Below, in pieces: positions 5,758 to 60,366 of a DNA stretch of 60,865 bases. The notes beneath the pieces are model-generated. The model searched no databases. It was not told the DNA's origin and saw only the letters and a list, made by a program, of their open reading frames with translations. The DNA comes from Acidobacteriota bacterium (lineage in GTDB: Bacteria; Acidobacteriota; Thermoanaerobaculia; UBA5066; Gp7-AA6). The position numbers were made by a program, and so were the translations under genes. The stretch covers positions 1-60,865 of the forward strand of contig DAHUXD010000046.1 of assembly GCA_027307335.1 (NCBI GenBank), written 5' to 3'. How positions within the stretch are numbered: position 1 is the stretch's first letter; every line of letters starts with the position of its first letter.

Positions 5758-6849
5758 TCAGGAAGGTGGAAGGAGCGGCAGTCCCGGCCCTTCCACCGCC
5801 GCATCGTCCGCTTGCGCCTTGTCCGCGATCGTCTCGAGGCGCGTCGTGAAGCGATCGAACGCCCGGCTCGTCTCCTCGTACTGCCGGGACGCGTTCTCGA
5901 GGTGCCCGCCGAGCTTCTCGAGCGGCCCACCCACGCGATCCCAGAGCCGCGACAGCTCCGCGAGGTTCTGGTGGACCTCGCGCGCGTTCTCCTGCAGCGC
6001 GATTCCGCGGAGTCCCATGGCCACGGTCGAGAGGTACGCGTAGAGGAGGCGCGGCGACACCGGGATCACGCGGCGCGCCGTCGCGTAGTCCGCGAGCGCC
6101 GTCTCCTCGCCATCGGCGGCGATCTCGGAGTACACGGCCTCCGCCGGCACGTACATCAGCGCGAAGTCGCAGGTGCCCGAGGCGGGGCGGATGTACTTCT
6201 CGGCGATCGCGTCCACGTGCTTCCGGACGTCGCGTCCGAACTGGGTCCGCGCCCGGCGGCGCTCGCCCTCGTCCTCGACCTCGTGGGAGCGCCGGTAGTT
6301 CTCGAGCGGGAACTTGCTGTCGATCGGGACCACGCGGTCCTGCACGAAGACGACCGCATCCACGACGACGCCGTCGCCGAGCCCGTGCTGCGTGGCGAAG
6401 GAGCCGGGGGGTAGCGCCTGCGCGAGCGCCTGTTCGAGGAACATCTCCCCGAGGGTTCCGCGGAGCTTCGGCGGCTTCAGCAGGTCCTCGAGGCGGGTCA
6501 CCTCGCCGGCGAGCCGCTCGATCTTCTGCGAGGCCTCGTGCAGCCGCCCGAGCTTCTCGCCGACCTCCTGCAGCAGCGTCCCCGAGCGGCCGAGGTGCTC
6601 GGAGATCGAGCGCTGGCCGGTCTCGAGCCGCTGCTCGACCCCGCCGACGCGCGACTCGACCGCGCCCCGGAGCTCCTCGAAGCGGCGATCGACCGACTGC
6701 GAGGCCTCGCGCGCCCGCGCCGTCTCGGCGAGGAGCCGGTCGAGGCGGGCGGCCGAATCCCGCGACCGCGAGAGGACGAGGAGGACGGCGGCGGCGCCGA
6801 CGGCCGCGGCCATGAGGGCGATCCCGACGAGGACGGACGGAGAACTCAT
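5758..6849 (-). CDS. rmuC: RmuC family protein (DNA recombination)
   Basis: 363 residues. RmuC proteins carry a PD-(D/E)XK nuclease-like core, limit inversion of short inverted repeats, and have been linked to stalled-replication repair. One N-terminal membrane helix (about 4-27) anchors the protein. A coiled coil follows (about 40-130, many Glu/Arg heptads), then the RmuC core with LRGTLGEMFLEQALAQ, VVVDAVVFV, VPIDSKFPLENY and DFALMYVPAEAVY. I start at the ATG 6849 because the helix begins right after it; the in-frame extension to 6903 is not hydrophobic and runs into the divergent promoter. The next gene reads the other way from 6918. Confidence 0.93.
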   Translation of the reverse strand: MSSPSVLVGIALMAAAVGAAAVLLVLSRSRDSAARLDRLLAETARAREASQSVDRRFEELRGAVESRVGGVEQRLETGQRSISEHLGRSGTLLQEVGEKLGRLHEASQKIERLAGEVTRLEDLLKPPKLRGTLGEMFLEQALAQALPPGSFATQHGLGDGVVVDAVVFVQDRVVPIDSKFPLENYRRSHEVEDEGERRRARTQFGRDVRKHVDAIAEKYIRPASGTCDFALMYVPAEAVYSEIAADGEETALADYATARRVIPVSPRLLYAYLSTVAMGLRGIALQENAREVHQNLAELSRLWDRVGGPLEKLGGHLENASRQYEETSRAFDRFTTRLETIADKAQADDAAVEGPGLPLLPPS

Positions 6850-12360: not shown

Positions 12361-13275
12361 GTGGTCCGCACGCCGCTGCTGCGCCTCGCCGTCGACGGAC
12401 CCGCCGAGATCTTCCTCAAGGTCGAGGCGCTCCAGCCGATCGGGTCCTTCAAGCTGCGCGGCGCCGGCAATGCGATCGCGCTCGCCGACCCCGCCGCGCT
12501 CGAGCGCGGCGTCTGGACCGCCTCGGCCGGCAACATGGCGCAGGGCGTGGCGTGGAACGCGAAGCGGCTCGGCATCCCGTGCACCGTGGTCGTCCCGGAC
12601 CACGCGCCGCGCGCGAAGCTCGACGCGATCGAGCGGCTGGGCGGGCGCATCATCCCGGTCCCGGTCGAGCGCTGGTGGCGCGTGCTCGAGGACCACGGCT
12701 ACCCCGGCATCGAGGGGCTCTTCATTCACCCGGTCTCGGACCCGGCGGTGATCGCCGGCAACGGCACGATCGGGCTCGAGATCCTCGAGGACCTCCCGGA
12801 CGTCGACACCGTGCTCGTGCCCTGGGGCGGCGGCGGGCTGTCGTGCGGGATCGCCGCGGCGTTGCGCGTCCTCCGGCCGGAGGCGCGCGTCTTCGCCGCC
12901 GAGATCGAGACGGCGGCGCCGCTCGCGCCGTCGCTCGCCGCGGGCCGTCCCGTCGGCGTCGAGTACCGGGCGAGCTTCGTCGACGGGATCGGCGCGAAGA
13001 GCCTCCTTCCCGAGATGTGGCCGATGGCGCGGGAGATCCTCGCGGGTTCGTTCGTGGTGTCGCTCGAGGAGACCAAAGCGGCGATGGGTATGCTGGTCTC
13101 TCGCGCGCGCGTCGTCGCGGAGGGGGCCGGCGCGGTGCCGGTGGCGGCGGCGCTCTCCGGGCGCGCCGGCCGCGGCCGGATCGTCTGCGTCGTCTCCGGC
13201 GGCAACATCGACCGCGAGAAGCTCGCGGAAATTCTCGCGGAAACCCCTCTCCCTCCGGGAGAGGCGAAGGGGTGA
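12361..13275 (+). CDS. Threonine dehydratase-like PLP enzyme (EutB-like)
   Basis: At least 304 residues, fold type II PLP enzyme: Schiff-base Lys in PIGSFKLRGAGNA, phosphate-binding GGGGLSCG, cofactor loop SAGNMAQG, and SGGNID near the end. It probably deaminates a beta-hydroxy amino acid (Ser, Thr or a derivative). The GTG at 12361 is the only standard start downstream of the preceding stop, yet family-like sequence (VSLDEILAARRRVAGF) continues in frame up to about 12310, so the true start is probably a non-standard codon (for example CTG at 12331) coupled to the upstream gene. The last dozen codons (TPLPPGEAKG) lie in a dispersed palindromic repeat. Confidence 0.87.
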   Translation: MVRTPLLRLAVDGPAEIFLKVEALQPIGSFKLRGAGNAIALADPAALERGVWTASAGNMAQGVAWNAKRLGIPCTVVVPDHAPRAKLDAIERLGGRIIPVPVERWWRVLEDHGYPGIEGLFIHPVSDPAVIAGNGTIGLEILEDLPDVDTVLVPWGGGGLSCGIAAALRVLRPEARVFAAEIETAAPLAPSLAAGRPVGVEYRASFVDGIGAKSLLPEMWPMAREILAGSFVVSLEETKAAMGMLVSRARVVAEGAGAVPVAAALSGRAGRGRIVCVVSGGNIDREKLAEILAETPLPPGEAKG

Positions 13276-13282
13276 GGGGCGC
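13244..13282. repeat. Dispersed palindromic repeat, copy 1 (inside gene 3' end)
   Basis: The core ccctctccctccgggagagg is a palindrome, followed by a ggggtgaggggc flank. Its reverse complement closely matches 26957-26997 and, less closely, 48136-48180. This copy supplies the stop codon and last codons of the threonine-dehydratase-like gene. Confidence 0.65.
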
Positions 13283-13300
13283 CCCCGTGCAAGTCTGGAG

Positions 13301-13852
13301 CTAGAACCGCCAGCCGGCGAGGAAGACCAGGCAGTTCAGGCCGAGGTTCGGCAGCTCGGTGCCGGCGTTCGAGACGTGGGAGTACCGGGCCTCGAACGTC
13401 CAGGCCTGCGTGTCCGTGACCGCGCCCCGGAGACCGACGGCGGCCTCGATGAGGAAGTTGAAGCGCCGGTCGATCTCGTCGAGCTGCGTCAGGTCGGTCC
13501 ATCCGAGGCCGACTCCCAGATAAGCGTACGGCCGGATCGCCGAGCGTCTCGGCGCGTTGTACCGCGCCCCGACCGGCACCACGCCGACCATGTAGCCCTC
13601 GGGCGAGAGGTAACGGGCGACGTGCGCCTCGGCGACGTACTCGAAGCGCGACCCGAGGCGGATCCCCACGTTCGGCTCGAAGAGGAACAGGGATTCGCGC
13701 GAACGGCCGCCGTTCGGACTGAACGAGAACCCGTACCCGGCCTGGAGTCCCCACTCCGGCGGCCTCCCTTCCGGAATCGGCGGGGGCGCCTCCTCGGCCG
13801 CGGCGGCCGCGCCGACGAGGAGGAGCGCGGCGGCCGCGAGCGCGCGTCTCAT
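13301..13852 (-). CDS. PagL-like lipid A deacylase / acyloxyacyl hydrolase family outer membrane protein
   Basis: 183 residues: signal peptide at 1-20 (LAAAALLLVGAAAAA) and an eight-strand-sized beta-barrel. The motif ARYSHVSNAG at about 155-164 carries the His-x-Ser-Asn of PagL, an outer-membrane esterase that removes the 3-O acyl chain of lipid A. The protein ends in a Phe (LAGWRF), as outer membrane barrels do. The catalytic Glu of PagL cannot be assigned with certainty. The ATG overlaps the fpg stop (ATGA), an odd pairing of DNA repair with envelope remodelling. Confidence 0.8.
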   Translation of the reverse strand: MRRALAAAALLLVGAAAAAEEAPPPIPEGRPPEWGLQAGYGFSFSPNGGRSRESLFLFEPNVGIRLGSRFEYVAEAHVARYLSPEGYMVGVVPVGARYNAPRRSAIRPYAYLGVGLGWTDLTQLDEIDRRFNFLIEAAVGLRGAVTDTQAWTFEARYSHVSNAGTELPNLGLNCLVFLAGWRF

Positions 13853-49411: not shown

Positions 49412-49494
49412 GCGGCGCGAGTCTAGCAGCGGCCCGCCGTGGAGACGCCCGACGCGTGGCCGGATGCCGCGCGTGCCCGCGTCGCTGGTGAAGC

Positions 49495-49500
49495 TAGAAT
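49495..49500 (+). promoter_or_regulatory. -10-like hexamer before the TPR kinase gene
   Basis: TAGAAT followed by a leader of about 45 bases with AAGGAG. A canonical -35 is not obvious. Confidence 0.35.
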
Positions 49501-49552
49501 CGGGTCCGCAAAGGAGTGCGCGCATCGCCGTTCATCTCCGGGCGGTCGTTCG

Positions 49553-52510
49553 ATGATCTGCCCGATCTGCCGTGAGCCGAATCCCGAGGGAGTCGAGACG
49601 TGCCTCTCGTGCACGCATCCCTTCGTGACGCCCAAGATCACCATCACGCCGCCGCCCCTGGAGGCGTCGGAGCTGACCTCGGTGCCGACGATGGGAAGCC
49701 CCTCCTCGTTCAAGCAGTGGGCGAGCCAGTCGCAGCGGACGGGCACGAGCACGGCCGTGCTGCCGGCCGGCCTCGAGATCGGCAAGCGATACAGGGTCAA
49801 GAGCCTCCTCGGGATGGGCGGGATGGGCGCGGTGTATCTCTGCCACGACCTCGAGCTCGACCGGGACGTCGCGCTGAAGCTCATCCGCTCCGACATCGCC
49901 GAGGACGCGGACATGCTCGAGCGGTTCAAGCGGGAGATCCAGCTCTCCTCGAAGGTGACCCACCCGAACGTGCTCCGCGTCTTCGACCTCGGCGAGAGCG
50001 ACGCCATCAAGTTCCTGACGATGCAGTTCGTCGACGGGCGCGACCTCTCGACGATCCTGAAGAAGCAGGGCAAGCTCCCGACCGAGCGCCTCGTGAAGAT
50101 CTTCCGCCAGATGGCCGAGGGCCTGAAGGCGGCCCACGACCAGGGCGTCATCCACCGCGACCTGAAGCCGCAGAACATCATGATCGACGCCCACGACCAC
50201 GTCTACGTGACCGACTTCGGCCTGGCGAAGTCCGCCGGCCAGTCGGGGATGACGCAGACGGGCGCTGTCATCGGCACGCCGTTCTACATGTCTCCCGAGC
50301 AGGTCCGCGGCGAGGCCGTGACCCCGCAGTCCGACATCTTCGCGCTCGGCGTCATCCTCTACCAGATGGCCGCCGGCGTCGTGCCGTTCACGGGGGCGAC
50401 GCCGTTCGAGGTCATGATGGCGCGCATCCAGAAGCCGGCGCGCCCGATCGCCGAGCTCAACGCGGACCTGCCCGTCTACCTTCGAAGGGTGATCGAGCGC
50501 TGCCTCGCGGTCGATCCCGCGCTCCGCTACCAGAGCGTCGCCGACATCCTCGCCGATCTCGAGACGGAGAGCTTCAAGACGAGCCTCCGCTACAGAGCCA
50601 TGACCCGGCGCTGGGTCAAGCCGACGGTCTATGGAACGATCGCCGCGGTCGTGCTCGCGGCCTCGGGGCTCTTCATCTACGAGCGAGGCCGCTCGGCCAA
50701 GCGCACGACGCAGAAGACCCAGTCGGTGCTCGTGGCAGACTTCACGAATCGCACCGGAGACCCCGTCTTCGACGGCACGCTCGAACCGGCCTTCACGGTC
50801 GCGCTCGAGGGCGCGTCGTTCGTGAGCTCCTACAGCCGCTCGAACGCCAGGAAGGTCGCCGCCCAGCTCCAGCCGGGCGCCACGACCCTCGACGCCAACC
50901 TCGCGAGGCTCGTCGCCGCCCGGGAGGGCGTCAACGTCGTGACGTCCGGCTCCGTGGACAAGAGCGGCGACGGCTACGAGGTCTCGGTCCAGGCGGTCGA
51001 CGCCGTGACCGGCAAGACCATCGCGGCCGACTCCGAGAAGGCCTCCGGCAAGGACCGCGTCCTCGCGTCCGTCGCCCGGCTCGCCGCGAAAGTCCGCCGC
51101 GGTCTCGGCGACGCGACGCCTGAGTCCGCGCAGCTGGCCGCCGCCGAGACGTACACCGCCGGGTCGATCGAGGCCGCGCACGAGTACGCGCTCGCGCAGA
51201 ACCTGCAGTGGGAGGGCAACTGGGACGAGGCGATTCGCCACTACCGCAAGGCGCTCGACCTCGACCCGAACCTGGGGCGCGCGTACGCGGGCCTCGCCGC
51301 CGTCGAGAGCAATCGCGGCCGGCGCGCCGAGGCCGAGAAGTACTACAAGGACGCGCTCTCGCGGATCGACCGGATGAGCGAACGCGAGAAGTACCGGACG
51401 CGCGGCGGCTACTACCTCCTCGTGCGCAATCCCGACAACGCGGTCGAGGAGTTCCAGGCGCTCGTCCAGCAGTACCCCGCGGACACCGCCGGCATCGCGA
51501 ACCTCGCCGCGGCGTACTTCTACAAGCGCGACATGCCGCGCGCCCTGAAGGAGGCGCGCCGGGCGATCGAGATCTACCCGAAGAACGTGCCCCAGCGGAA
51601 CAACCTGGGACTCGACGCGATGTACGCCGGCGACTTCGAGACCGCGATCCGCGAGCAGGACGAGGTGCTGAAGCTCAACCCGAAGTTCGCGCTCGCGTAC
51701 GTCGGCAAGGCGCTCTCGCAGCTCGCGCTCGGCCACCCGGACCAGGCCGCGGCGACGTACGGAAAGGGGGCGGAGGCGGACGCGCGCGGCGCCTCGGTCG
51801 CGGCGCTCGGCCTCGCGGACATCGCGCTCTACCAGGGACGCCCCGCCGACGCGGTGCCGATCCTCGAGAAGGGCATCGAGGCCGACCTCGCCGCTCAGAA
51901 CGCCGACCCGGCGGCCGAGAAGCGGATCGCGCTCGCCGAGGCGAAGCTCGCGCTGCACGACGCGCCGGGAGCCGTGGCGGAGGTCGACAAGGCGATCGCG
52001 TCGGCGAAGGGCGAGAACGTCCTCTACCCCGCCGCCCGCATCCTGATCGCGACGAACCGCGAGGCGAGGGCGCTCTCGCTGGCCGACGAGCTCGCGTCGC
52101 GGCTCGAGCCGGACCCGCAGGCGTACGCCGAGCTGATCCGCGGCGAGGCGGAGCTCGCCCGCGGCAAGTCGGCGGAGGCGATCCGGCACTTCCAGGCGGC
52201 GAAGAAGATCGCCGACACGTGGGCCGGCCGCTTCGCGCTCGGGCGGGCCTACGTCGCGGCCGGCGCCTTCGCGGAGGCCGACGCCGAGCTCGAGGCCTGC
52301 GTCAAGCGGCGCGGCGAGGCGACGGCCGTCTTCCTCGAGGAGTCGCCGAGCTACCGCGTGTTCCCACCCGTCGAGTACTACCTTGGCCGCGCCAAGGAAG
52401 GGCTGAAGAGTCCCGCGGCCGCCGACGCCTACAAGAGCTTCCTCGCGGTGAAGACCGGACCCGGCGACGAGCTCGTCGCCGACGCCCGCAAGCGGCTCGG
52501 CGGGAAATAG
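49553..52510 (+). CDS. Membrane Ser/Thr protein kinase with zinc ribbon and TPR repeats
   Basis: 985 residues. An N-terminal zinc ribbon (CPIC..CLSC, residues 3-22) precedes a Hanks-type kinase (about 75-345): LLGMGGMGAVYL, VALKLIRSD, VIHRDLKPQNIM, VTDFGLAKS and GTPFYMSPEQV are all canonical. One membrane helix at about 362-382 (YGTIAAVVLAASGLFIYE) is followed by a FlgO-like stretch (VLVADFTNRTGDPVFDGTL) and about ten TPR-like repeats to the C-terminus (for example WDEAIRHYRKALDLDPNLGR). The ATG at 49553 lies after a plausible ribosome site. Targets are unknown; the FHA-cyclase at 504-2117 is a candidate acceptor. Confidence 0.95.
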   Translation: MICPICREPNPEGVETCLSCTHPFVTPKITITPPPLEASELTSVPTMGSPSSFKQWASQSQRTGTSTAVLPAGLEIGKRYRVKSLLGMGGMGAVYLCHDLELDRDVALKLIRSDIAEDADMLERFKREIQLSSKVTHPNVLRVFDLGESDAIKFLTMQFVDGRDLSTILKKQGKLPTERLVKIFRQMAEGLKAAHDQGVIHRDLKPQNIMIDAHDHVYVTDFGLAKSAGQSGMTQTGAVIGTPFYMSPEQVRGEAVTPQSDIFALGVILYQMAAGVVPFTGATPFEVMMARIQKPARPIAELNADLPVYLRRVIERCLAVDPALRYQSVADILADLETESFKTSLRYRAMTRRWVKPTVYGTIAAVVLAASGLFIYERGRSAKRTTQKTQSVLVADFTNRTGDPVFDGTLEPAFTVALEGASFVSSYSRSNARKVAAQLQPGATTLDANLARLVAAREGVNVVTSGSVDKSGDGYEVSVQAVDAVTGKTIAADSEKASGKDRVLASVARLAAKVRRGLGDATPESAQLAAAETYTAGSIEAAHEYALAQNLQWEGNWDEAIRHYRKALDLDPNLGRAYAGLAAVESNRGRRAEAEKYYKDALSRIDRMSEREKYRTRGGYYLLVRNPDNAVEEFQALVQQYPADTAGIANLAAAYFYKRDMPRALKEARRAIEIYPKNVPQRNNLGLDAMYAGDFETAIREQDEVLKLNPKFALAYVGKALSQLALGHPDQAAATYGKGAEADARGASVAALGLADIALYQGRPADAVPILEKGIEADLAAQNADPAAEKRIALAEAKLALHDAPGAVAEVDKAIASAKGENVLYPAARILIATNREARALSLADELASRLEPDPQAYAELIRGEAELARGKSAEAIRHFQAAKKIADTWAGRFALGRAYVAAGAFAEADAELEACVKRRGEATAVFLEESPSYRVFPPVEYYLGRAKEGLKSPAAADAYKSFLAVKTGPGDELVADARKRLGGK

Positions 52511-52512
52511 AA

Positions 52513-52538
52513 AAGGGCGGCGCCCGCGCGCCGCCCTT
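52513..52538. terminator. Bidirectional terminator between kinase and secreted protein genes
   Basis: 11-base stem aagggcggcgc / gcgccgccctt with a 4-base loop and A/T-rich flank on each side, placed 3 bases after the kinase stop and 20 bases before the convergent gene's end. Confidence 0.7.
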
Positions 52539-52557
52539 CATCGCGTGCCCTTCGGTT

Positions 52558-55500
52558 CTACTGCAGCTGCTCGATCGTCGCCTTGATCGCGCTGCCGTCG
52601 TTCAGCTGGAGCTCGAGCTCGTAGCAGCCGGGGCCGGCCATGTAGCCGGTGTTCCAGTTGAAAATGAACTGGTTGCCCCCGGTGTCGTAGCGGAACGTGC
52701 TCCCGCCCTTCGCTCCGGCCGTCGGCGAGTAGAGCAGCACGGGCGCCCCGCTCGCCTGCCCCGAGCAGACGCCGGCGGGGTACGGCGCCGCCGACAGGTT
52801 CGTCGTCGTGGTCAGGTCGCTGATGTAGTTCCCGTTCGCGTCCTGGAGCTGCCACTTGATCGGCTGCGCGGAGCCGTAGTTCGACGAACCGGAGAAGCTC
52901 GGGGAGCCGATCGTCCCTGCTGTGGCCATCGGCGGCAGGAACCCGGTGAACGTGTAGAACACGAGGACCGTCTGCGCGAGCGCGGCCGACGTCGACGGCA
53001 GGTGGCTCGCATCGCCGAGGTAGGCCGCCGTGATCGAGTGGACGCCTCCGGTCAGGGCGCTCGTTGAGAACGTCGCGGAATTTCCGGAGAGGACGCCCGA
53101 ACCGATGATGGCCGCGCCGTCGAGGAAGTTGACCGTCCCGGTCGGCACGCCGGCGGCCGAAGTGACCGTGGCCGTGAACGTCACCGGCTGCCCCTGGATC
53201 GAGGGATTGAGGCTCGAGGAGACGGTGGTGGCGCTGCCGGCCGGGCTGACGGTCTGCGCGAGCGCCGCCGACGAGCTGCCGTTGAAGTTGCCGTCGCCGC
53301 CGTAGGAGGCGGTGATCATGTGGACGCCGCCGATGAGAGCCGCAGTGGCGAGGCTCGCCGTGCCGCCCGAGACCGCCGACGATCCGAGCACGACGCCGCC
53401 GTCGTAGAAGGTCACGGTTCCGGTCTGCGTGCCCGCGCCGGGCGCCGTCGCGGCGACGGTCGCCGTGAAGGTGACTGCGGATCCGAAGACGGACGGATTC
53501 GGCGCCGAGCCGATGCTCGTGGACGTCGCGGCCTTGCCGACCGGCTGGTTGAACACGCCCGAGGTGCCGGTCGAGAAGTTCGCGTCGCCGGCGTAGGTGG
53601 CGGTGATCGAGTGCCCGGCAACCGAAAGCGCGGCGGTCGAAAGCGTCGCCGCGTTGCCGGAGAGCGCGGCGCTGCCGAGGGAGACGCCGTTGTCGTAGAA
53701 GGTGACGCTGCCTGTCGGCGTGCCGGATCCCGGCGCCGTGACGGTCACCGTCGCCGTGAACATGACGCTCTGGCCGAACACGGGCGACGCGACGCTCGAC
53801 GTCACGGCCACCGAAGTGAACGCCTTGTTGACCGTGAGGGGGGACGAAGGAGCGCTGCTCGTCAGGTGCGCGGTCGTGGCTGGCAAGAAGGTCGCGCCGA
53901 CCGTATCGGTGCCGACCGCGGTCGGCGTCGCGGTCACGGCGCACGTGGCGACCCCGAGCGAAGCTTGCGAGAGATTGCAGCTCGTCGGCGAGAGTCCCTG
54001 CCCCGTCAGCGCGACCGAGCCTGACGGCGTGACTTTCGTTCCGGTCGGCTCGCTGTCCGCGACCGTGACGGTGACGGTCGACGGCTGTCCCACGAAGACC
54101 GTCGAGGGCGCGAAGGCGATCGAGGTCGTCGTCGCCCGGGCGTTGATCTGCAGGCTGAACGTCTGCGTCGCCTTCTGCGGCGTGCCGACCGTCGAGTCCG
54201 TCACCTGGATGGTGAAGTTGAAGGAACCCGAACCCGTCGGCGTTCCGGAGATCACGCCCGCCGGGGACAGGGTCAGTCCCGACGGCAGGACGCTCCCGGG
54301 GGCGAGCGCCCACGTCAGCGGCGCCTGGCCGCCCGCGGCCTGGAGCGTGGTCGTGTAGGGGACGCCGACGAGCGCGACCGGCAGCGTCGTGCCGCCGACC
54401 GCCTGGATCTGGAGCAGCAGGGCGAACGAGGCCGACCCGGCGCCGGTGTTCGCGCCGTGCGCGGTCACGACGGGCGTCAGCTGCTGGATGAGCGCGAGCA
54501 TCTGGTCGTGGGTCGCCTGGCCGCGGAGGGTCAGGAACACCGTTTCGCCCGGACCGATCGGAATGGTCGCGTTGTCCAGGCTGCCGTCCCCGATGTTGGG
54601 GTTCGTCGCGTCGCCGATCGAGGCCGCGATCGTCCCGTTCGCCGTCGCGAGGACGGTGCTCTGCGGCACGCTCTGCAGCGTGCAGCCGATCGCCGCCGGC
54701 GTCTGCGAGTTCTTCGTCGCGATGACCTGCAGCGGGATGTGGTTGGGATTGTTGCCGTACAGGGCCACGCGATACGAGTGCGTCGTGTTGCCGCTGTTGA
54801 CGATCGCGTAATTCGCGTCGGTGTACGGCGCGTTCGAGATGTTCTGATTCGAGATGTTCTGGTTGGAGATGTTCTGGTTCGAGATGTTCTGGTTCGCGAC
54901 CGTGACGTTCGAGATGTTCTGGTTCGAGTTGTTCTGATTCGAGATGTTCTGGATCGCCGGGCTCGGGTTCGAGATGTTCTGGTTCGAGATGTTCTGGTTG
55001 GAGATGTTCTGATTCGAGATGTTCTGGTTCGAGATGTTCTGGATCGCCGGGTCGGCGTTCGAGATGTTCTGATTGGAGATGTTCTGGTTCGAGATGTTCT
55101 GGTTCGGATCGGTGATGTTGACGTACGGATTGGGGTTGTTCGGGTCGTTCGAGTTGCTCGGGTTCCAGACCGCGAACGTCGGCGTGTAGACCTCGACGGA
55201 GCCGATGTCCTGCGAGGCGCCGTCCGGCTCCGCGAGCGGGGGCACGGATCCTTCGGGATTCATCACGACCGAGCCGGAGAGACACGGGCTGCAGCCCGCC
55301 GTCGTCTCGGTGACGCTGACGGTCATGCTGCCCGCGACGTTGGCGGAGCTCGCGAACACCGGCCGGGCCGCGCCGGAGCGGGCGGGGATCGAGATGCCGG
55401 CCAGGGACGTCACGGGCGAGCCCTGCTGGAACGACGCGGCGACGCCGGCCGCCGGCGTGACGCTGAAGGTGAAGGTCCGGTTCTGGCTGGTGAGGTTCTG

Positions 55501-57615
55501 CGCCGTCACGATGAACGCGCGCTGCTTGGGCGCCGCGAAGAGGGGCTTCGCGTCCTGCGGCGAGCCGACGAGGAGCCCCTCGGTGACGCGGCTCATGTAG
55601 ATGTTCTGGTTCCGGCTGCCGGTGTACTGCCCCAGGCAGGCCGGGACCTTCTGCGTCGGGTCGAGGATGCTCGTGCTCGTCCCGTCGCCCGCGTTCGTCG
55701 CCGAGATCGGCGGCGTGTACTTCGACCAGTCCACGAGCCCCGTGTTGGGATCCAGCGGCGGCACCACGTCGCGGTTGTCGGTCCACGTCGCGTAGAACAC
55801 CGGCGGCGTGGACGCCGCGGTGCTGTAGGTCCACGTGCCGTCCGTGTGCGCGAGGAAGCTCTGACCCGCAATGTCGATGTAATCGCCGAGGAACGGCACC
55901 GTTCCCTGCGAGAACATCGGCAGGTTCGGCGCGTTGACCTGGAGCTGATACACGTGGTCCGGCGGCTGCGGGCTGATCGGATTGTCCTGATCGTCGTTGT
56001 AGACGCCGTTCGCGTCCGGCGCCCACAGGCCCATCCGGTACTGCGACACGCTCGCCGACGCGAAGCTCGGCGCCGCGGCGGGCAGCGCGTCGGCGACCCG
56101 CAGGTCGATCGTGTGGCGGCGCTGGGTCAGGATCGAGGCGTCGTCGTCGACGAAGAGCGTGAAGACGGCGCTCTGGCCGGGGCTGATCAGCTCGCCCCGC
56201 AGCGCCTGGGTGCGCAGGTAGAAGCGTCCCTGCGCGTCCGGCGTGAACGGGTTGTTCGGATAGAAGAGCGAGAGCGTGTGATCGAGCCGCTGGTCGTAGT
56301 ACACGAGCATCAGGCGGCCGGCGGCGAACGTCAGCTGCGGCATGAACTGGTGGCCGCGGGTGAAGTTGTTCCCGGCATCGTCCGAGATCGCCCCGTTGTC
56401 CACCGGCGCCGGCGCGCTCCAGGTCTGACCCGAGTTCGCGGACGTCGACACCACGATGCGCGCGTCCTGGTTCGCGCCGGTCCGCTGCGCCCACGCGACG
56501 TGCACGCGGCTCGTGCCGCCGGCGTCGACCGACGCCGCGACGGACGGCAGCGTGTTCGTGCGGAAGCGGGTGCCACTCATCGCCTGGTCGAACGGCGCGA
56601 TGGTCGCGACCGTATAAGTGTTCCTCGAGGCAAAGGTCTTGCCGAAGTCATCCGAGCGCGCGATCAGGATCGAGTCGGGGTTCGACGACGTCTGAAACTG
56701 CCGCCACGCGGCGTACACCTTGCCGCTCGGCGGGTCGATCGCGAGGTTCGTGCCCTGGTTGACGGAGCTCGACTCCGAGAGCTTCATGGGGTTCGACCAC
56801 GTCTTTCCGCAGTCGAGCGACCGCGAGAACATGATCTTCGTCGAGGTCGAGCCGGTGAAGCGGCTCCAGACCAGGTAGACGTTGCCGGCCTTCACCGTCT
56901 GCGAGCCGGTCAGCCCCGGGAACGTGCAGGTCCCTCCCCCGGAGCGCGGGATGTCGACGGCGACCCAGGTCTTGTCGAGGAACTGGCCCGACGTGCCCGT
57001 GTCGACGACGACGGTCCGCTGGTACTGCAGCGCGTCCGTGCCGGCCGGGGCGTTGCCGTTCTCCTTCTGGTTCGTATCGAAGAAGGTCGACACGAAGACC
57101 GCGCCGTTGTTGGTGCCGCGGTTGAAAGCGATGCCGCTGTAGTAGAAGACGCCGCCCGTCCCGGCCCGGATCGTGGGGTCCGCGGCGGCGTTGTAGGCCT
57201 TCAGCGGCGAAGCGAGGCCGACCGGCGACTGGTCCTGCGGATAGCCCGGCAGGAGATAGCTCTGCCAGGTGAGGCCGCCGTCGAAGGACTTGAAGACGCC
57301 GAGCCAGGCGTCGCCCGCGAGCGAGCCGGGCACGATGTCGGACACGGGGATGTCGACCGTGCGGTAGTCGTTCGCGCCGGCGAGGAGGTGCATCGGGTTG
57401 CGCGAGGAGACCGCGAGCGACGGCTCGTTCTGGCGCTGCAGGAACGGATCGCCGCCCGGCCAGGAGGTGCCCGCCACCATGTTGACGTTCTGCCCGGCGA
57501 CGGGCGTCGTCTGGGCGAGTGCCGCGGGCGCGCTGATCAGCAGGGCCGATAGCGCGGCGAGGGTCCGGGCTCCGTTCGCAGATACACGTACACGTCCAGA
57601 GCCTGGATTTCGCAT
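52558..57615 (-). CDS. Giant secreted Asp-box/Ig-repeat protein with QNISN tract
   Basis: 1685 residues. Signal peptide at 1-35 (LSALLISAPAALAQ). Residues about 60-400 have four sialidase-type Asp-boxes (SFDGGLTW, SLDCGKTW, SDDFGKTF, SANSGQTW), indicating a propeller, though sialidase catalytic residues were not found. Residues 839-928 are 18 in-register pentamers, 15 of them QNISN-type. A He_PIG Ig domain is near 1080-1160, and three clear plus one weaker bacterial Ig-3-like domains follow to about 1550 (GSVTFYDNGV, GTVTFYDGGV, GTVNFLDGA). The C-terminus carries a PIKWQL block like PxKF domains. Likely surface or extracellular adhesion. ATG 57615 has a GGAGG site. Confidence 0.88.
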   Translation of the reverse strand: MRNPGSGRVRVSANGARTLAALSALLISAPAALAQTTPVAGQNVNMVAGTSWPGGDPFLQRQNEPSLAVSSRNPMHLLAGANDYRTVDIPVSDIVPGSLAGDAWLGVFKSFDGGLTWQSYLLPGYPQDQSPVGLASPLKAYNAAADPTIRAGTGGVFYYSGIAFNRGTNNGAVFVSTFFDTNQKENGNAPAGTDALQYQRTVVVDTGTSGQFLDKTWVAVDIPRSGGGTCTFPGLTGSQTVKAGNVYLVWSRFTGSTSTKIMFSRSLDCGKTWSNPMKLSESSSVNQGTNLAIDPPSGKVYAAWRQFQTSSNPDSILIARSDDFGKTFASRNTYTVATIAPFDQAMSGTRFRTNTLPSVAASVDAGGTSRVHVAWAQRTGANQDARIVVSTSANSGQTWSAPAPVDNGAISDDAGNNFTRGHQFMPQLTFAAGRLMLVYYDQRLDHTLSLFYPNNPFTPDAQGRFYLRTQALRGELISPGQSAVFTLFVDDDASILTQRRHTIDLRVADALPAAAPSFASASVSQYRMGLWAPDANGVYNDDQDNPISPQPPDHVYQLQVNAPNLPMFSQGTVPFLGDYIDIAGQSFLAHTDGTWTYSTAASTPPVFYATWTDNRDVVPPLDPNTGLVDWSKYTPPISATNAGDGTSTSILDPTQKVPACLGQYTGSRNQNIYMSRVTEGLLVGSPQDAKPLFAAPKQRAFIVTAQNLTSQNRTFTFSVTPAAGVAASFQQGSPVTSLAGISIPARSGAARPVFASSANVAGSMTVSVTETTAGCSPCLSGSVVMNPEGSVPPLAEPDGASQDIGSVEVYTPTFAVWNPSNSNDPNNPNPYVNITDPNQNISNQNISNQNISNADPAIQNISNQNISNQNISNQNISNQNISNPSPAIQNISNQNNSNQNISNVTVANQNISNQNISNQNISNQNISNAPYTDANYAIVNSGNTTHSYRVALYGNNPNHIPLQVIATKNSQTPAAIGCTLQSVPQSTVLATANGTIAASIGDATNPNIGDGSLDNATIPIGPGETVFLTLRGQATHDQMLALIQQLTPVVTAHGANTGAGSASFALLLQIQAVGGTTLPVALVGVPYTTTLQAAGGQAPLTWALAPGSVLPSGLTLSPAGVISGTPTGSGSFNFTIQVTDSTVGTPQKATQTFSLQINARATTTSIAFAPSTVFVGQPSTVTVTVADSEPTGTKVTPSGSVALTGQGLSPTSCNLSQASLGVATCAVTATPTAVGTDTVGATFLPATTAHLTSSAPSSPLTVNKAFTSVAVTSSVASPVFGQSVMFTATVTVTAPGSGTPTGSVTFYDNGVSLGSAALSGNAATLSTAALSVAGHSITATYAGDANFSTGTSGVFNQPVGKAATSTSIGSAPNPSVFGSAVTFTATVAATAPGAGTQTGTVTFYDGGVVLGSSAVSGGTASLATAALIGGVHMITASYGGDGNFNGSSSAALAQTVSPAGSATTVSSSLNPSIQGQPVTFTATVTSAAGVPTGTVNFLDGAAIIGSGVLSGNSATFSTSALTGGVHSITAAYLGDASHLPSTSAALAQTVLVFYTFTGFLPPMATAGTIGSPSFSGSSNYGSAQPIKWQLQDANGNYISDLTTTTNLSAAPYPAGVCSGQASGAPVLLYSPTAGAKGGSTFRYDTGGNQFIFNWNTGYMAGPGCYELELQLNDGSAIKATIEQLQ
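54832..55101 (-). repeat. 270-bp coding tract of 15-bp tandem repeats (QNISN pentamers)
   Basis: Eighteen 15-base units without a break in register: 3 QNISN, one spacer (ADPAI), 5 QNISN, one spacer (PSPAI), 3 (one QNNSN), one spacer (VTVAN), 4 QNISN. Unit sequences vary only at wobble-like positions, so the tract probably expands and contracts by slippage or recombination. Confidence 0.9.
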
Positions 57616-57717
57616 TGAACCTCCACCCTTCCAGCCGCTTGAGGAGAAACACGGGCCGATCCCCGCGAGCGACACTATACAACGACCCGTCCTCTGGGAC
57701 AGGGGCAGGAAAGGTCT

Positions 57718-58482
57718 TTAGCCGAGCTTTTCCTTGAGGCGCGCGTAGCCTTCGCGACTCACCGGGATCCGGGTCCCGTCGGCGAGCACGGCGACGTGGC
57801 CGCCGGCGCCGAGCGGCTCGATACGGGCGAGCGCGTCGAGCCGCAGGAGATGCGACCGGTGCACGCGGACGAAGCGGACGGGATCGAGCGCCGCGGCGAG
57901 ACTCGTGAGCGTCTGCGGCTTCAGGTACGTCCGGCCCTCGGCCTTGAGCGCCACGTAATCGTCCTGCGCCTCCGCGGCATCGAGCCGGTCGACCGGGATC
58001 ACGTGGACACGGCTGCCGTCCCGGACGACGATCCGGCCGAGCGGCGTCGCCGCCGGCCGGACCGCGGCCTTGAGGCCGTCGGTCGGGACGCTCGCTCCCG
58101 CGGCTCGCCGCGCCCGGGCCCGGTCGACCGCGAGCGCGATGCGCTCCGCCGCGAACGGCTTCAGGACGTAATCGACCGCGGCGACCTCGAACGCCCGCAC
58201 GGCGTGCTCGTCGTACGCGGTGACGAAGACGGGCGCGATCGAGCGGTCGAGGAGCTCGAGCACCTCGAACCCGTCGAGCTTCGGCATCTCGATGTCGAGG
58301 AACACGACGTCGGGCGACAGCGTGGTCGCGGCACGCACGGCCTCGAAGCCGTCGCCGCACTCGCCGGCGACGCGCACTCCGGGAAGCGCCTCCAGGTGGC
58401 GGCGCAGGATCGCGCGCGCGGGCTCCTCGTCGTCGACGATCAGGACCTTCAGCGGAGCGGCGCCCTCCGCCGGTCCGGTCAC
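57718..58482 (-). CDS. LytTR-type response regulator
   Basis: 254 residues from GTG, overlapping the kinase stop. Receiver domain about 10-125: VDDEEPAR with the acidic pocket, phospho-acceptor Asp in VVFLDIEMPKLDGF near 64, and the Lys of YVLKPFAAE near 112. LytTR DNA-binding domain about 150-250 (IVVRDGSRVHVIPVDRLDAAE, FVRVHRSHLLRLD, PVSREGYARL). It is the output of the histidine kinase encoded just upstream. Targets unknown; the giant secreted protein gene next door is one possibility. Confidence 0.95.
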   Translation of the reverse strand: MTGPAEGAAPLKVLIVDDEEPARAILRRHLEALPGVRVAGECGDGFEAVRAATTLSPDVVFLDIEMPKLDGFEVLELLDRSIAPVFVTAYDEHAVRAFEVAAVDYVLKPFAAERIALAVDRARARRAAGASVPTDGLKAAVRPAATPLGRIVVRDGSRVHVIPVDRLDAAEAQDDYVALKAEGRTYLKPQTLTSLAAALDPVRFVRVHRSHLLRLDALARIEPLGAGGHVAVLADGTRIPVSREGYARLKEKLG

Positions 58483-59540
58483 GCGGGCATCTCCGCCGGC
58501 ACCGAGATCACGACGAGGTAACGATCCGCGAGCCGCTTCGCGGCGAACAGGGCCTCCTCGCCGTACCGGGCGGCGAGACGCTGGCGAACGTTCGCGAGCC
58601 CGCGGCCTCCTCCCGGCCTCGCCGGCCCCTCCGGGTCGAGCGGGTTCTCGATCAGGATCCGCAGCCGGCCGGCGCCGCAGGCGACGCCGACGCGGAGGGT
58701 GCCGCCCTCGACGCGCGTCGCGATGCCGTGCCGCACCGCGTTCTCGACCAGCGGCTGGAGGAGCAGCGGCGGCACGAGACACTTCTGCCCCCGCTCGTCC
58801 AGGTCCTCCTCGACCTCCAGCCGCGAGCCGTAGCGCAGCGCCTCGACCGCGAGGTACGCGCGCGACAGCTCGATCTCCTCGCCGACCGAGATCGACTTCT
58901 TCTCGCCGAGAGCGAGGCTCCTCCGCAGGAACTCGCCGAGGCGGACGCACATCTGCTCGGCCCGCGGCGGGTCGGTCGCGGCGAGGGAGGCAATCGAATT
59001 CAGGCTGTTGAAGAGGAAGTGCGGCCGGATCTGCGCCTTCAGCGCGGCGAGCTCCGCCTCGCGCGCGAGGATCGCGAGCTCCGCCTCGCGCCGCTCCGCC
59101 TCCGAGGCGGCCTCCAGCGCGAGGAGCACGTAGTTGAGCGCGGCGGCGAGGACGTACAGGAGCAGGCCGGCCGCCCACAGCGCGACCGCCTGGCCGACGA
59201 AACGGTCGCGGAGACCTTCGAAACGCGACAGAAGGCCGAGGACGGCGGCGAGCACCACGCCGAGGCCGACCCAGAGCGACGAGACCAGCGCGGCGGCCGT
59301 GGCGTGCGTCAGCACGAGGGGCAGGATTCGCGACCGCGCGAGCGGCAGCTGGCGGCACGGATACCAGGCCGAGAGGCCCATGAACGCGTAGGCGAAGGTC
59401 AGCGGGACGGCCATCGTCACCGCCTCGACGAGGGACAGCCCTCCCGGCCGGGCGAGCATCGCCGTCAGGATCGCGGCGAGCGGCGCACAGGCGGCGAGGT
59501 ACGGGAGCAGCCGGCCGCGGTGAGCGAGGATCGGGTGCAT
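58479..59540 (-). CDS. LytS/YehU-type sensor histidine kinase
   Basis: 353 residues. Four to five membrane helices fill residues 1 to about 145. The His_kinase domain (PF06580-like) begins near 170 with the phospho-His in LKAQIRPHFLFNSLNSIA. The ATPase N-box is LLLQPLVENAVRHGIA near 265 and a G-rich block RPGGGRGLANVRQRL near 315. No sensor domain beyond the membrane part. Forms a two-component system with the next gene. Confidence 0.94.
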   Translation of the reverse strand: MHPILAHRGRLLPYLAACAPLAAILTAMLARPGGLSLVEAVTMAVPLTFAYAFMGLSAWYPCRQLPLARSRILPLVLTHATAAALVSSLWVGLGVVLAAVLGLLSRFEGLRDRFVGQAVALWAAGLLLYVLAAALNYVLLALEAASEAERREAELAILAREAELAALKAQIRPHFLFNSLNSIASLAATDPPRAEQMCVRLGEFLRRSLALGEKKSISVGEEIELSRAYLAVEALRYGSRLEVEEDLDERGQKCLVPPLLLQPLVENAVRHGIATRVEGGTLRVGVACGAGRLRILIENPLDPEGPARPGGGRGLANVRQRLAARYGEEALFAAKRLADRYLVVISVPAEMPA

Positions 59541-59571
59541 GGCGCGGGCCTCTTCTCTCTGCTCGGAACTC

Positions 59572-60366
59572 TCAGTTCTTCACTTCGATGCCGCCCATCA
59601 GGATGAACCCGTTGATGACCATCGTCCGGACCCGTCCGTCGGGAGGAAGGACCGTGCGCGCCTTCACGTCCCCGCCTCCCAGGAGAGGCGTGACGTTGAC
59701 GACGACCTTCCAGCCCTCCGGGACGCGGAAGACGACCCCCCCCATCATGACGAAGATCTCGACCGAGACTTCGTCCCGCGTCATCGCGGCCTCGCGCAGA
59801 TCGATGTCGAACCCGCCCGCGATCACCGTGACCGTTCCGCCGCGGAAATCCGGCGTCTGCACGAGCCGGTGGCCCCCGCCGCACAGGGCAAACTCGCTCA
59901 GCTCCGCGACGCCGGCGGAGCCCGTGAAGCCCTCCGTCGCCGCCAGGCCGGCGCGCGCACCCTCGAAGGCCCGCTCGCCCGGACTCGTCGCGAGCCCGGG
60001 TGCGGGCGCGCTCATCACCGCCGCGCCGGCGCGCGGCGTCGTCGTCTGCCAGATCAGGTACGCGCCGAGGACGACGAGCGCGAACGGCCACAGGCGGTGG
60101 AAGGGCACCCACAGGTAACCGAGGTTGCGCAGGATCAGGAACCCTCCGACGGCGACGAGAATCGCGCCCCAGACGCGCTGTCCCGGCCGCGACGGATTGA
60201 GGAGCCGCGCGAGACCCGGCCCGACCAGGAGGAGCGGCCAGTAGTCCCACAGCGAGCCCGCGTCGACGAGGCGCAGGTTGTCCAGGATGAACAGCGCGCC
60301 GAGGAGAACGAGGAACGCGCCGGCGATCACCTTCTCGGTCAGCCGGAAACGCGGAGCTTGTTCCAT
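59572..60366 (-). CDS. LiaF-like membrane protein
   Basis: 264 residues. An N-terminal membrane block (four helices in about 12-115: VIAGAFLVLLGALFILDNL, WPFALVVLGAYLIW) resembles DUF5668, and the C-terminal 110 residues have the repeated beta pattern of LiaF (GGTVTVIAGGFDIDL, EIFVMMGGVVFRVP, MVINGFILMGGIEVKN). LiaF proteins restrain cell-envelope stress kinases in Firmicutes. Here it precedes a LytS/LytTR pair in the same direction with a 31-base gap, which fits a similar role. A GGAGGT site precedes the ATG. Confidence 0.87.
   Translation of the reverse strand: MEQAPRFRLTEKVIAGAFLVLLGALFILDNLRLVDAGSLWDYWPLLLVGPGLARLLNPSRPGQRVWGAILVAVGGFLILRNLGYLWVPFHRLWPFALVVLGAYLIWQTTTPRAGAAVMSAPAPGLATSPGERAFEGARAGLAATEGFTGSAGVAELSEFALCGGGHRLVQTPDFRGGTVTVIAGGFDIDLREAAMTRDEVSVEIFVMMGGVVFRVPEGWKVVVNVTPLLGGGDVKARTVLPPDGRVRTMVINGFILMGGIEVKN

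Follow-up and report, generated by a model that had tools for sequence, protein, structure and literature searches.

A family of pentapeptide arrays between Ig-like domains of putatively secreted Acidobacteriota proteins

Pentapeptide-repeat proteins (PRPs; PF00805) are built on a five-residue period and form the right-handed quadrilateral beta-helix (Rfr). Proline-containing pentapeptide or turn repeats are also known from elastin (VPGXG) and malaria CSP (NPNA). A published PRP consensus places A, C, S, V, T, L or I at position i-2 and L or F at position i, and a looser rule accepts any uncharged residue at i-2 and any strong hydrophobic residue at i (PMC7337050). Perfect repeats in proteins are commonly taken for recent duplications of DNA. 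In the homogenised repeats surveyed by Persi et al. (PMC5120217), homogeneity is mostly the result of recent duplication, and copy number varies. Here we describe an array whose protein family combines near-perfect amino acid uniformity with codon agreement at or near chance in most arrays. This family offers a natural test of selection-driven homogenisation of repeat arrays and of a possible pentapeptide rod with matched residues, for which present structure predictions give coil.

The array and its host gene

The array lies at positions 54832-55101 on the minus strand of the window, the 60,865-nucleotide stretch of an Acidobacteriota contig that we analysed. Minus-strand translation gave 18 in-phase pentamers over 270 bases, comprising 14 QNISN units, one QNNSN and the spacers ADPAI, PSPAI and VTVAN (in order: QNISN x3, ADPAI, QNISN x5, PSPAI, QNISN, QNNSN, QNISN, VTVAN, QNISN x4). 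The count given in a preliminary description, 15 QN(I/N)SN units and three spacers in phase, was therefore exact. Tandem Repeats Finder reported a period of 15 with 18.3 copies and a score of 338, far above any other array in the window. Lag-5 residue matches numbered 55 of 85, whereas 5,000 shuffles of equal composition averaged 18 and never exceeded 31. A scan of the window's genome for further arrays returned none that was convincing. The same tract is present at 86% identity in an independently named MAG (JAIVJS010000002.1), so the assembly artefact that the preliminary description had considered is unlikely.

The array is read in the coding frame of its host gene, and matches to Big_3_5 and PxKF domains fall in the same ORF (52558-57675, minus strand, GTG start, 1,705 aa), the longest for this gene. 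By inspection we chose an ATG at 57615 as the probable start, which gives a gene at 52558-57615 (minus strand) of 1,685 aa. Two overlapping ORFs, at 54457-57552 (plus) and 52538-56494 (minus), were set aside as coding frames because the domain matches sit in the 52558-57675 frame.

The protein begins with a segment that by inspection resembles a signal peptide (...LAALSALLISAPAALAQ), followed in order by a weak BNR match, Ig-like domain 1, the array, Ig-like domain 2, Big_3_5 domains and PxKF, all encoded on the minus strand. The candidate BNR/sialidase-like beta-propeller segment (56398-56871) is suggested by PF13088 BNR_2 at E=1e-5, under the curated cut-off, and by weak BNR boxes; its sialidase match in the PDB is likewise weak (E about 0.5). 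Ig-like domain 1 (55261-55521), N-terminal of the putative stalk, was modelled by AF2 as all-beta (residues 10-96, pLDDT about 80-92), and its counterpart in the relative L021 matches Ig-like/MG-type domains with VIA-align Z of 7-8.7. Between this domain and the array, alignments with relatives delimit a lead-in segment, VEVYTPTFAVWNPSN...NITDPN (55102-55197), apparently the counterpart of an N-A-E-V-Y interruption in the relatives. Ig-like domain 2 (54460-54822), directly C-terminal of the array, was modelled mostly as confident beta (AF2 residues 243-363). It bears a weak resemblance to FixG_C, which also matches two of the 20 members weakly, and Foldseek placed the FixG-related 2r39 among the top rows for this region. 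Four stretches matched Big_3_5 Ig-like domains (52966-54138, outer boundary approximate; PF16640, E=1e-52; best stretch residues 1486-1570), and the C-terminal PxKF ('rightmost') domain (52573-52944) reached 57 bits against a cut-off of 35 (NF038114, E 2e-15). This layout points to a secreted multidomain protein, with cell attachment putative at most.

The neighbourhood includes a Ser/Thr kinase-TPR gene (49439-52510, plus strand) placed tail-to-tail with the array gene; in the genome G009, a TPR C-terminus similar to that of this gene (L005) adjoins the array gene. Upstream, on the same strand as the array gene, lie genes for a LytTR response regulator, a histidine kinase and a LiaF-like membrane protein (57718-60366, minus strand).

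Relatives and conservation in Acidobacteriota

Our statements on distribution rest on a sample of this phylum, 396 Acidobacteriota genomes. Matches at E <= 1e-6 were found in 21 of these genomes and in 18 of 210 genera, and translation confirmed arrays of this kind in at least 16 genomes, a count that excludes two matches of undecided type (L034 and L036). We rejected L039 as an ordinary pentapeptide-repeat protein and L037 and L038 as other proline-rich repeats. A class-level search yielded further members with NPDVS units. The closest array-bearing relative is the Acidobacteria MAG JAIVJS010000002.1 (genome G002, locus L015), in which the array is kept, and G001, of the same family as the window, had no match to the array. 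Pfam Extensin_1 matches in 15 of 20 members were read as low-complexity matches to periodic proline. In the literature searched, QNISNQNISN and NPDVSN occurred in no paper, and string matches of the NPDIEN type led to unrelated titles. The pentapeptide stalk family thus appears to be undescribed, and it is real and under strong constraint.

Each true member has its own motif. That of the window is NQNIS, and its relatives carry NPDVS, NPDIS, NPDLS, NPDIE, NPDVE, NPDIQ, NPDIA, NPAIQ, NPSVG, NPALF, NPALL and NPFVI. Motifs change block-wise even between congeners, as three genomes of one genus (g139) carry NPDVE, NPDIA and NPDIE. Charged residues are almost confined to unit positions 3 and 5 and near absent at 2 and 4, and the interruptions NAEVY and NVxVA recur at similar places across arrays. 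The preliminary description had also pointed to N-I-S as an N-glycosylation-type sequon, a suggestion that the relatives do not bear out. Only the window and L015 repeat N-I-S, and no relative beyond the window's GTDB family has a sequon in its repeat motif, so that the feature is not conserved across the array family. N-X-S/T (X not Pro) is absent from the NPDxx, NPAxx, NPSVG and NPFVI motifs and occurs only in scattered variant units. The window's genome has one STT3-family match (PF02516, 32 bits), by inspection without the WWD motif.

In the three pairs tested, the array was the best conserved part of its protein; the figures are pairwise estimates over short regions. Amino acid identity between the window and L015 was 96% in the array and 55% outside it, with pN of 0.021 versus 0.322 and pS of 0.49 versus 0.56. 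The corresponding pN values were 0.051 versus 0.181 for L016/L018 and 0.016 versus 0.213 for L023/L026. The L015 value for divergence outside the array is inflated, as that locus is partly frame-shifted downstream of it; over just the 756 residues that precede about residue 1180, the sequence outside the array was 66% identical, still far below 96%. After the array, from about codon 860 on, the Ig-like region of L015 reads as frame-shifted, Arg-rich sequence, which suggests a frameshift or assembly error in that MAG. Repeat number, whose comparison across relatives had been proposed as a check, is conserved in this pair, in which all 17 units that can be aligned, and the three spacers with them, hold the same positions. 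Among distant relatives it varies from about 4 to 25, with arrays of 4-5 units occurring.

Some proteins carry copies of their motif at a second site. In six of 20 proteins exact copies of the array's own motif recur 69-88 residues past the array end, before a late strand of Ig-like domain 2 (for example, NPFVI x5 in L035 and NPSVG x2 in L031). We counted 13 such copies, against a mean of 0.85 and a maximum of 9 in 5,000 shuffles; this test does not allow for the non-independence of related proteins that share motifs. The two sites may be in contact, or one may have been copied from the other. The equivalent loop in the window, NPNIGDGSLDN (54571-54603, minus strand), holds no motif copy.

Codon usage across units

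The preliminary description took near-identical DNA units as a sign of recent slippage or repeat-number variation, and hence possibly of a tunable surface rod. Near-identity held only in part: the 14 QNISN units come in four DNA versions, while codon agreement between exact units (0.84) slightly exceeds the 0.76 expected from the gene's own codon usage. Most arrays were near this expectation (L033, 0.33 versus 0.30; L031, 0.36 versus 0.40; L021, 0.47 versus 0.49); agreement was above it in the window, L015 (0.74 versus 0.56), L023, L026, L028, L030 and L032. Unit-to-unit pS was 0.28 in the window and 0.44-0.79 in other arrays, with pN of 0-0.13 (Ser TCN/AGC differences being counted as nonsynonymous steps); estimates from 15-bp units are crude, with synonymous sites near saturation and units non-independent. 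All 20 NPDIS units of L021 are exact, at pS 0.79 and pN 0, as are 22 of 23 NPDIA units of L027, at pS 0.74. Adjacent units showed no excess of similarity over distant ones (586 codon matches, with 593 expected).

By contrast, the QNISN runs of a Herpetosiphon plasmid and a Lachnospiraceae HydF-like gene consist of DNA-identical, slippage-type units. The plasmid run (L012; Herpetosiphon aurantiacus pHAU01, CP000876.1, from about nt 6043) lies in a 139-aa ORF, where nine QNISN units identical in DNA (CAGAATATTAGTAAT) and a partial tenth are followed by a hydrophobic C-terminal segment. The other run (L013; CACZRU010000111.1, near nt 1929) comprises four in-frame QNISN units with identical DNA (CAGAATATTTCTAAT) in the HydF-like GTPase gene of a Lachnospiraceae MAG, an apparent slippage expansion.

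Recent duplication would leave synonymous codons uniform, and most arrays are not so; we therefore reject recent slippage on the codon tests together with the fixed unit number in the closest pair. Between species we did not find the combination of DNA-identical neighbours and variable copy number in close relatives that marks slippage repeats. A slippage-prone, tunable surface repeat of recent origin is thus very improbable: the slight excess of codon agreement in the window speaks for it, but codons differ between units and between orthologues, neighbouring units are no closer than distant ones, genuine slippage arrays look different, and the closest relatives keep their unit number. Tunable length likewise finds no support between close species, all 17 alignable units being kept in the nearest relative. 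As in the homogenised repeats of Persi et al. (PMC5120217), units within a protein are more alike than between relatives; unlike in those repeats, many arrays have synonymous sites at saturation or close to it, and copy number hardly varies within close pairs.

Shape and readings of the array

The preliminary description proposed a possible right-handed beta-helix like that of PRPs, which the comparison favours in some respects and not in others. The array shares with PRPs a five-residue period, more than the at least eight tandem in-phase units that mark them (18 units in one phase), a hydrophobic centre, polar or charged residues mainly at i-1 and i+1, and the residue order x-N/D-I/V-S-N. 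With phmmer, the tract matched solved PRPs and PRP-type designs in the PDB in register (E down to 4e-7), and all matches were lost for a reversed tract one residue short. Against a profile of 767 local PRP units, the QNISN order ranked 2 of 60 permutations and most NPDxx motifs ranked 1 of 120, while NPFVI, NPALF and NPAIQ fitted poorly. The NPFVI motif of L035, the protein with five further copies at its second site, places Phe and Ile where PRP rules expect polar residues. Proline in local PRPs occurs almost only at i-2, its place in these arrays. The published consensus does not describe the array, since positions i-2 and i are taken by Q and I in QNISN and by P and I/V/L in the relatives; the looser rule would accommodate it (PMC7337050). 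PF00805 had no match in the window region at E <= 10, short of the Pfam cut-off, and matched one of 20 members, at E=2e-5. The array also differs from PRPs in its nearly invariant Asn at i+2, its uniform units and its place between Ig-like domains. It may work like a PRP rod, but we do not file it as a PRP, because the consensus and Pfam membership tests fail.

Structure prediction gave the array no shape. With 20 natural sequences for the QNISN array, and with 12 for the NPDIS array (query L021), AF2 returned coil at pLDDT about 30, without strands; in both, the flanking Ig-like domains were modelled with fair to high confidence and abut the array ends. Such low confidence is no proof of disorder, and a monomer model is silent on oligomers. 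The preliminary description would have been overturned by a tract both disordered and unconserved; at most the first applies here, since the array is conserved better than any other part of the protein.

We regard as about evenly balanced the reading that the array belongs to a family of pentapeptide stalks, each a sequence-specific, probably ordered spacer kept uniform by selection. The family, of the form N-(P/Q/A/V)-x-(I/V/L)-x, would link two Ig-like domains in large secreted proteins with a BNR propeller, found in scattered Acidobacteriota. Most likely, the stalk would serve as a spacer of regular repeats that separates the N-terminal, propeller part of the protein from its C-terminal Ig/PxKF part, and it may hold the propeller at a set distance. 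Selection may keep the units uniform because like residues contact one another, in homotypic ladders of an ordered rod, either as a monomer or as an oligomer that monomer prediction would miss. A stalk or rod is reasonable, since the array is genuine at the protein level, has a family and lies between Ig-like domains in a secreted protein; this much of the earlier proposal stands, without the tunable repeat number. Against it stand the AF2 coils, very short arrays that would form no rod amid the wide range of lengths in distant relatives, codon agreement above expectation in the seven arrays named above, and motif switches that still need some past whole-array replacement. The coils, the Pro or Q at every fifth residue and the variation in length over long times would suit a flexible, turn-rich linker, made of repeated N-P-D type turns or of extended coil, in which the repeated motif serves for binding or recognition, a possible reading that we find doubtful. 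Unstructured linkers commonly diverge faster than folded domains, whereas in the closest pair constraint on the array is about 15 times that on the remainder of the protein; moreover, a fixed ligand would not obviously permit a change from NPDIE to NPFVI. The arrays resemble the elastin and CSP repeats in Pro at position 2, adjoining turn-forming Asn or Asp and one free 'guest' position, but they keep an Ile/Val/Leu position and Asn, occur in a bacterial secreted setting and, in the window's main unit, lack Pro.

Among ordered shapes, an Rfr beta-helix with Q/P at i-2 and I/V at i pointing inward and Asn at the corner seems rather unlikely. The in-register PDB matches and their loss on reversal, the permutation ranks, proline at its permitted place and inward positions almost free of charged residues, as PRP rules demand (PMC7337050), argue for it. 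AF2, however, did not build it, which weighs against it because AF2 tends to over-call beta-solenoids on perfect repeats, although a low-confidence case was also noted for one natural perfect repeat (PMC11795689). The sparse PF00805 matches, the poorly fitting motifs and the arrays of 4-5 units count against it too, as does the make-up of local PRP units, which are diverse (mean identity 0.27) and rarely have Q (0.7%) or P (3%) at i-2 or I (1.2%) or V at i. It is unlikely, in our view, that the arrays instead adopt an undescribed repeat structure that requires every residue to match the corresponding one in an adjacent unit or chain; selection would then keep the protein uniform while its DNA drifts, and any change of motif would have to take in the whole array at once, in some proteins together with a matching second site in the Ig-like domain that follows. 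Quite improbable is an obligate-oligomer fibre in which N-x-x-(I/V)-x pentads intertwine between protein copies, so that monomer prediction fails. Such pentads accommodate Asn at position 1 and Ile/Val at position 4 better than PRPs do, and trimeric phage tail-tip fibres with N-A-x-I-x pentads are a possible parallel. The matches are weak: the 7z4b tail-tip fibre chain (three copies) reached E 0.02 for the pentad stretch of phage protein J and E 0.19 for a composite query of the relatives' units. The phage stretches share N-x-x-I-x pentads with the window family; unlike it, they belong to phage proteins with diverse units, no Pro and no shared domains seen.

The only phage matches were to protein J, with NAKIANATIENAKI pentads, and viral contigs gave no matches. 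In protein J of phage DSS3_PM1 (L083, 401-631), a tail protein, the N-x-x-I-x pentads resemble the array spacers. Plasmid loci from Kitasatospora (EGSDV) and Priestia (SdrC-like) were discarded as other repeats, and most remaining plasmid rows were annotated pentapeptide-repeat proteins. The PF00805 matches listed for the window's own genome (G000) lie not on contig C49 but on C35, where an ordinary pentapeptide-repeat region at about 12495-13586 (minus strand) occupies a 1,315-aa open frame.
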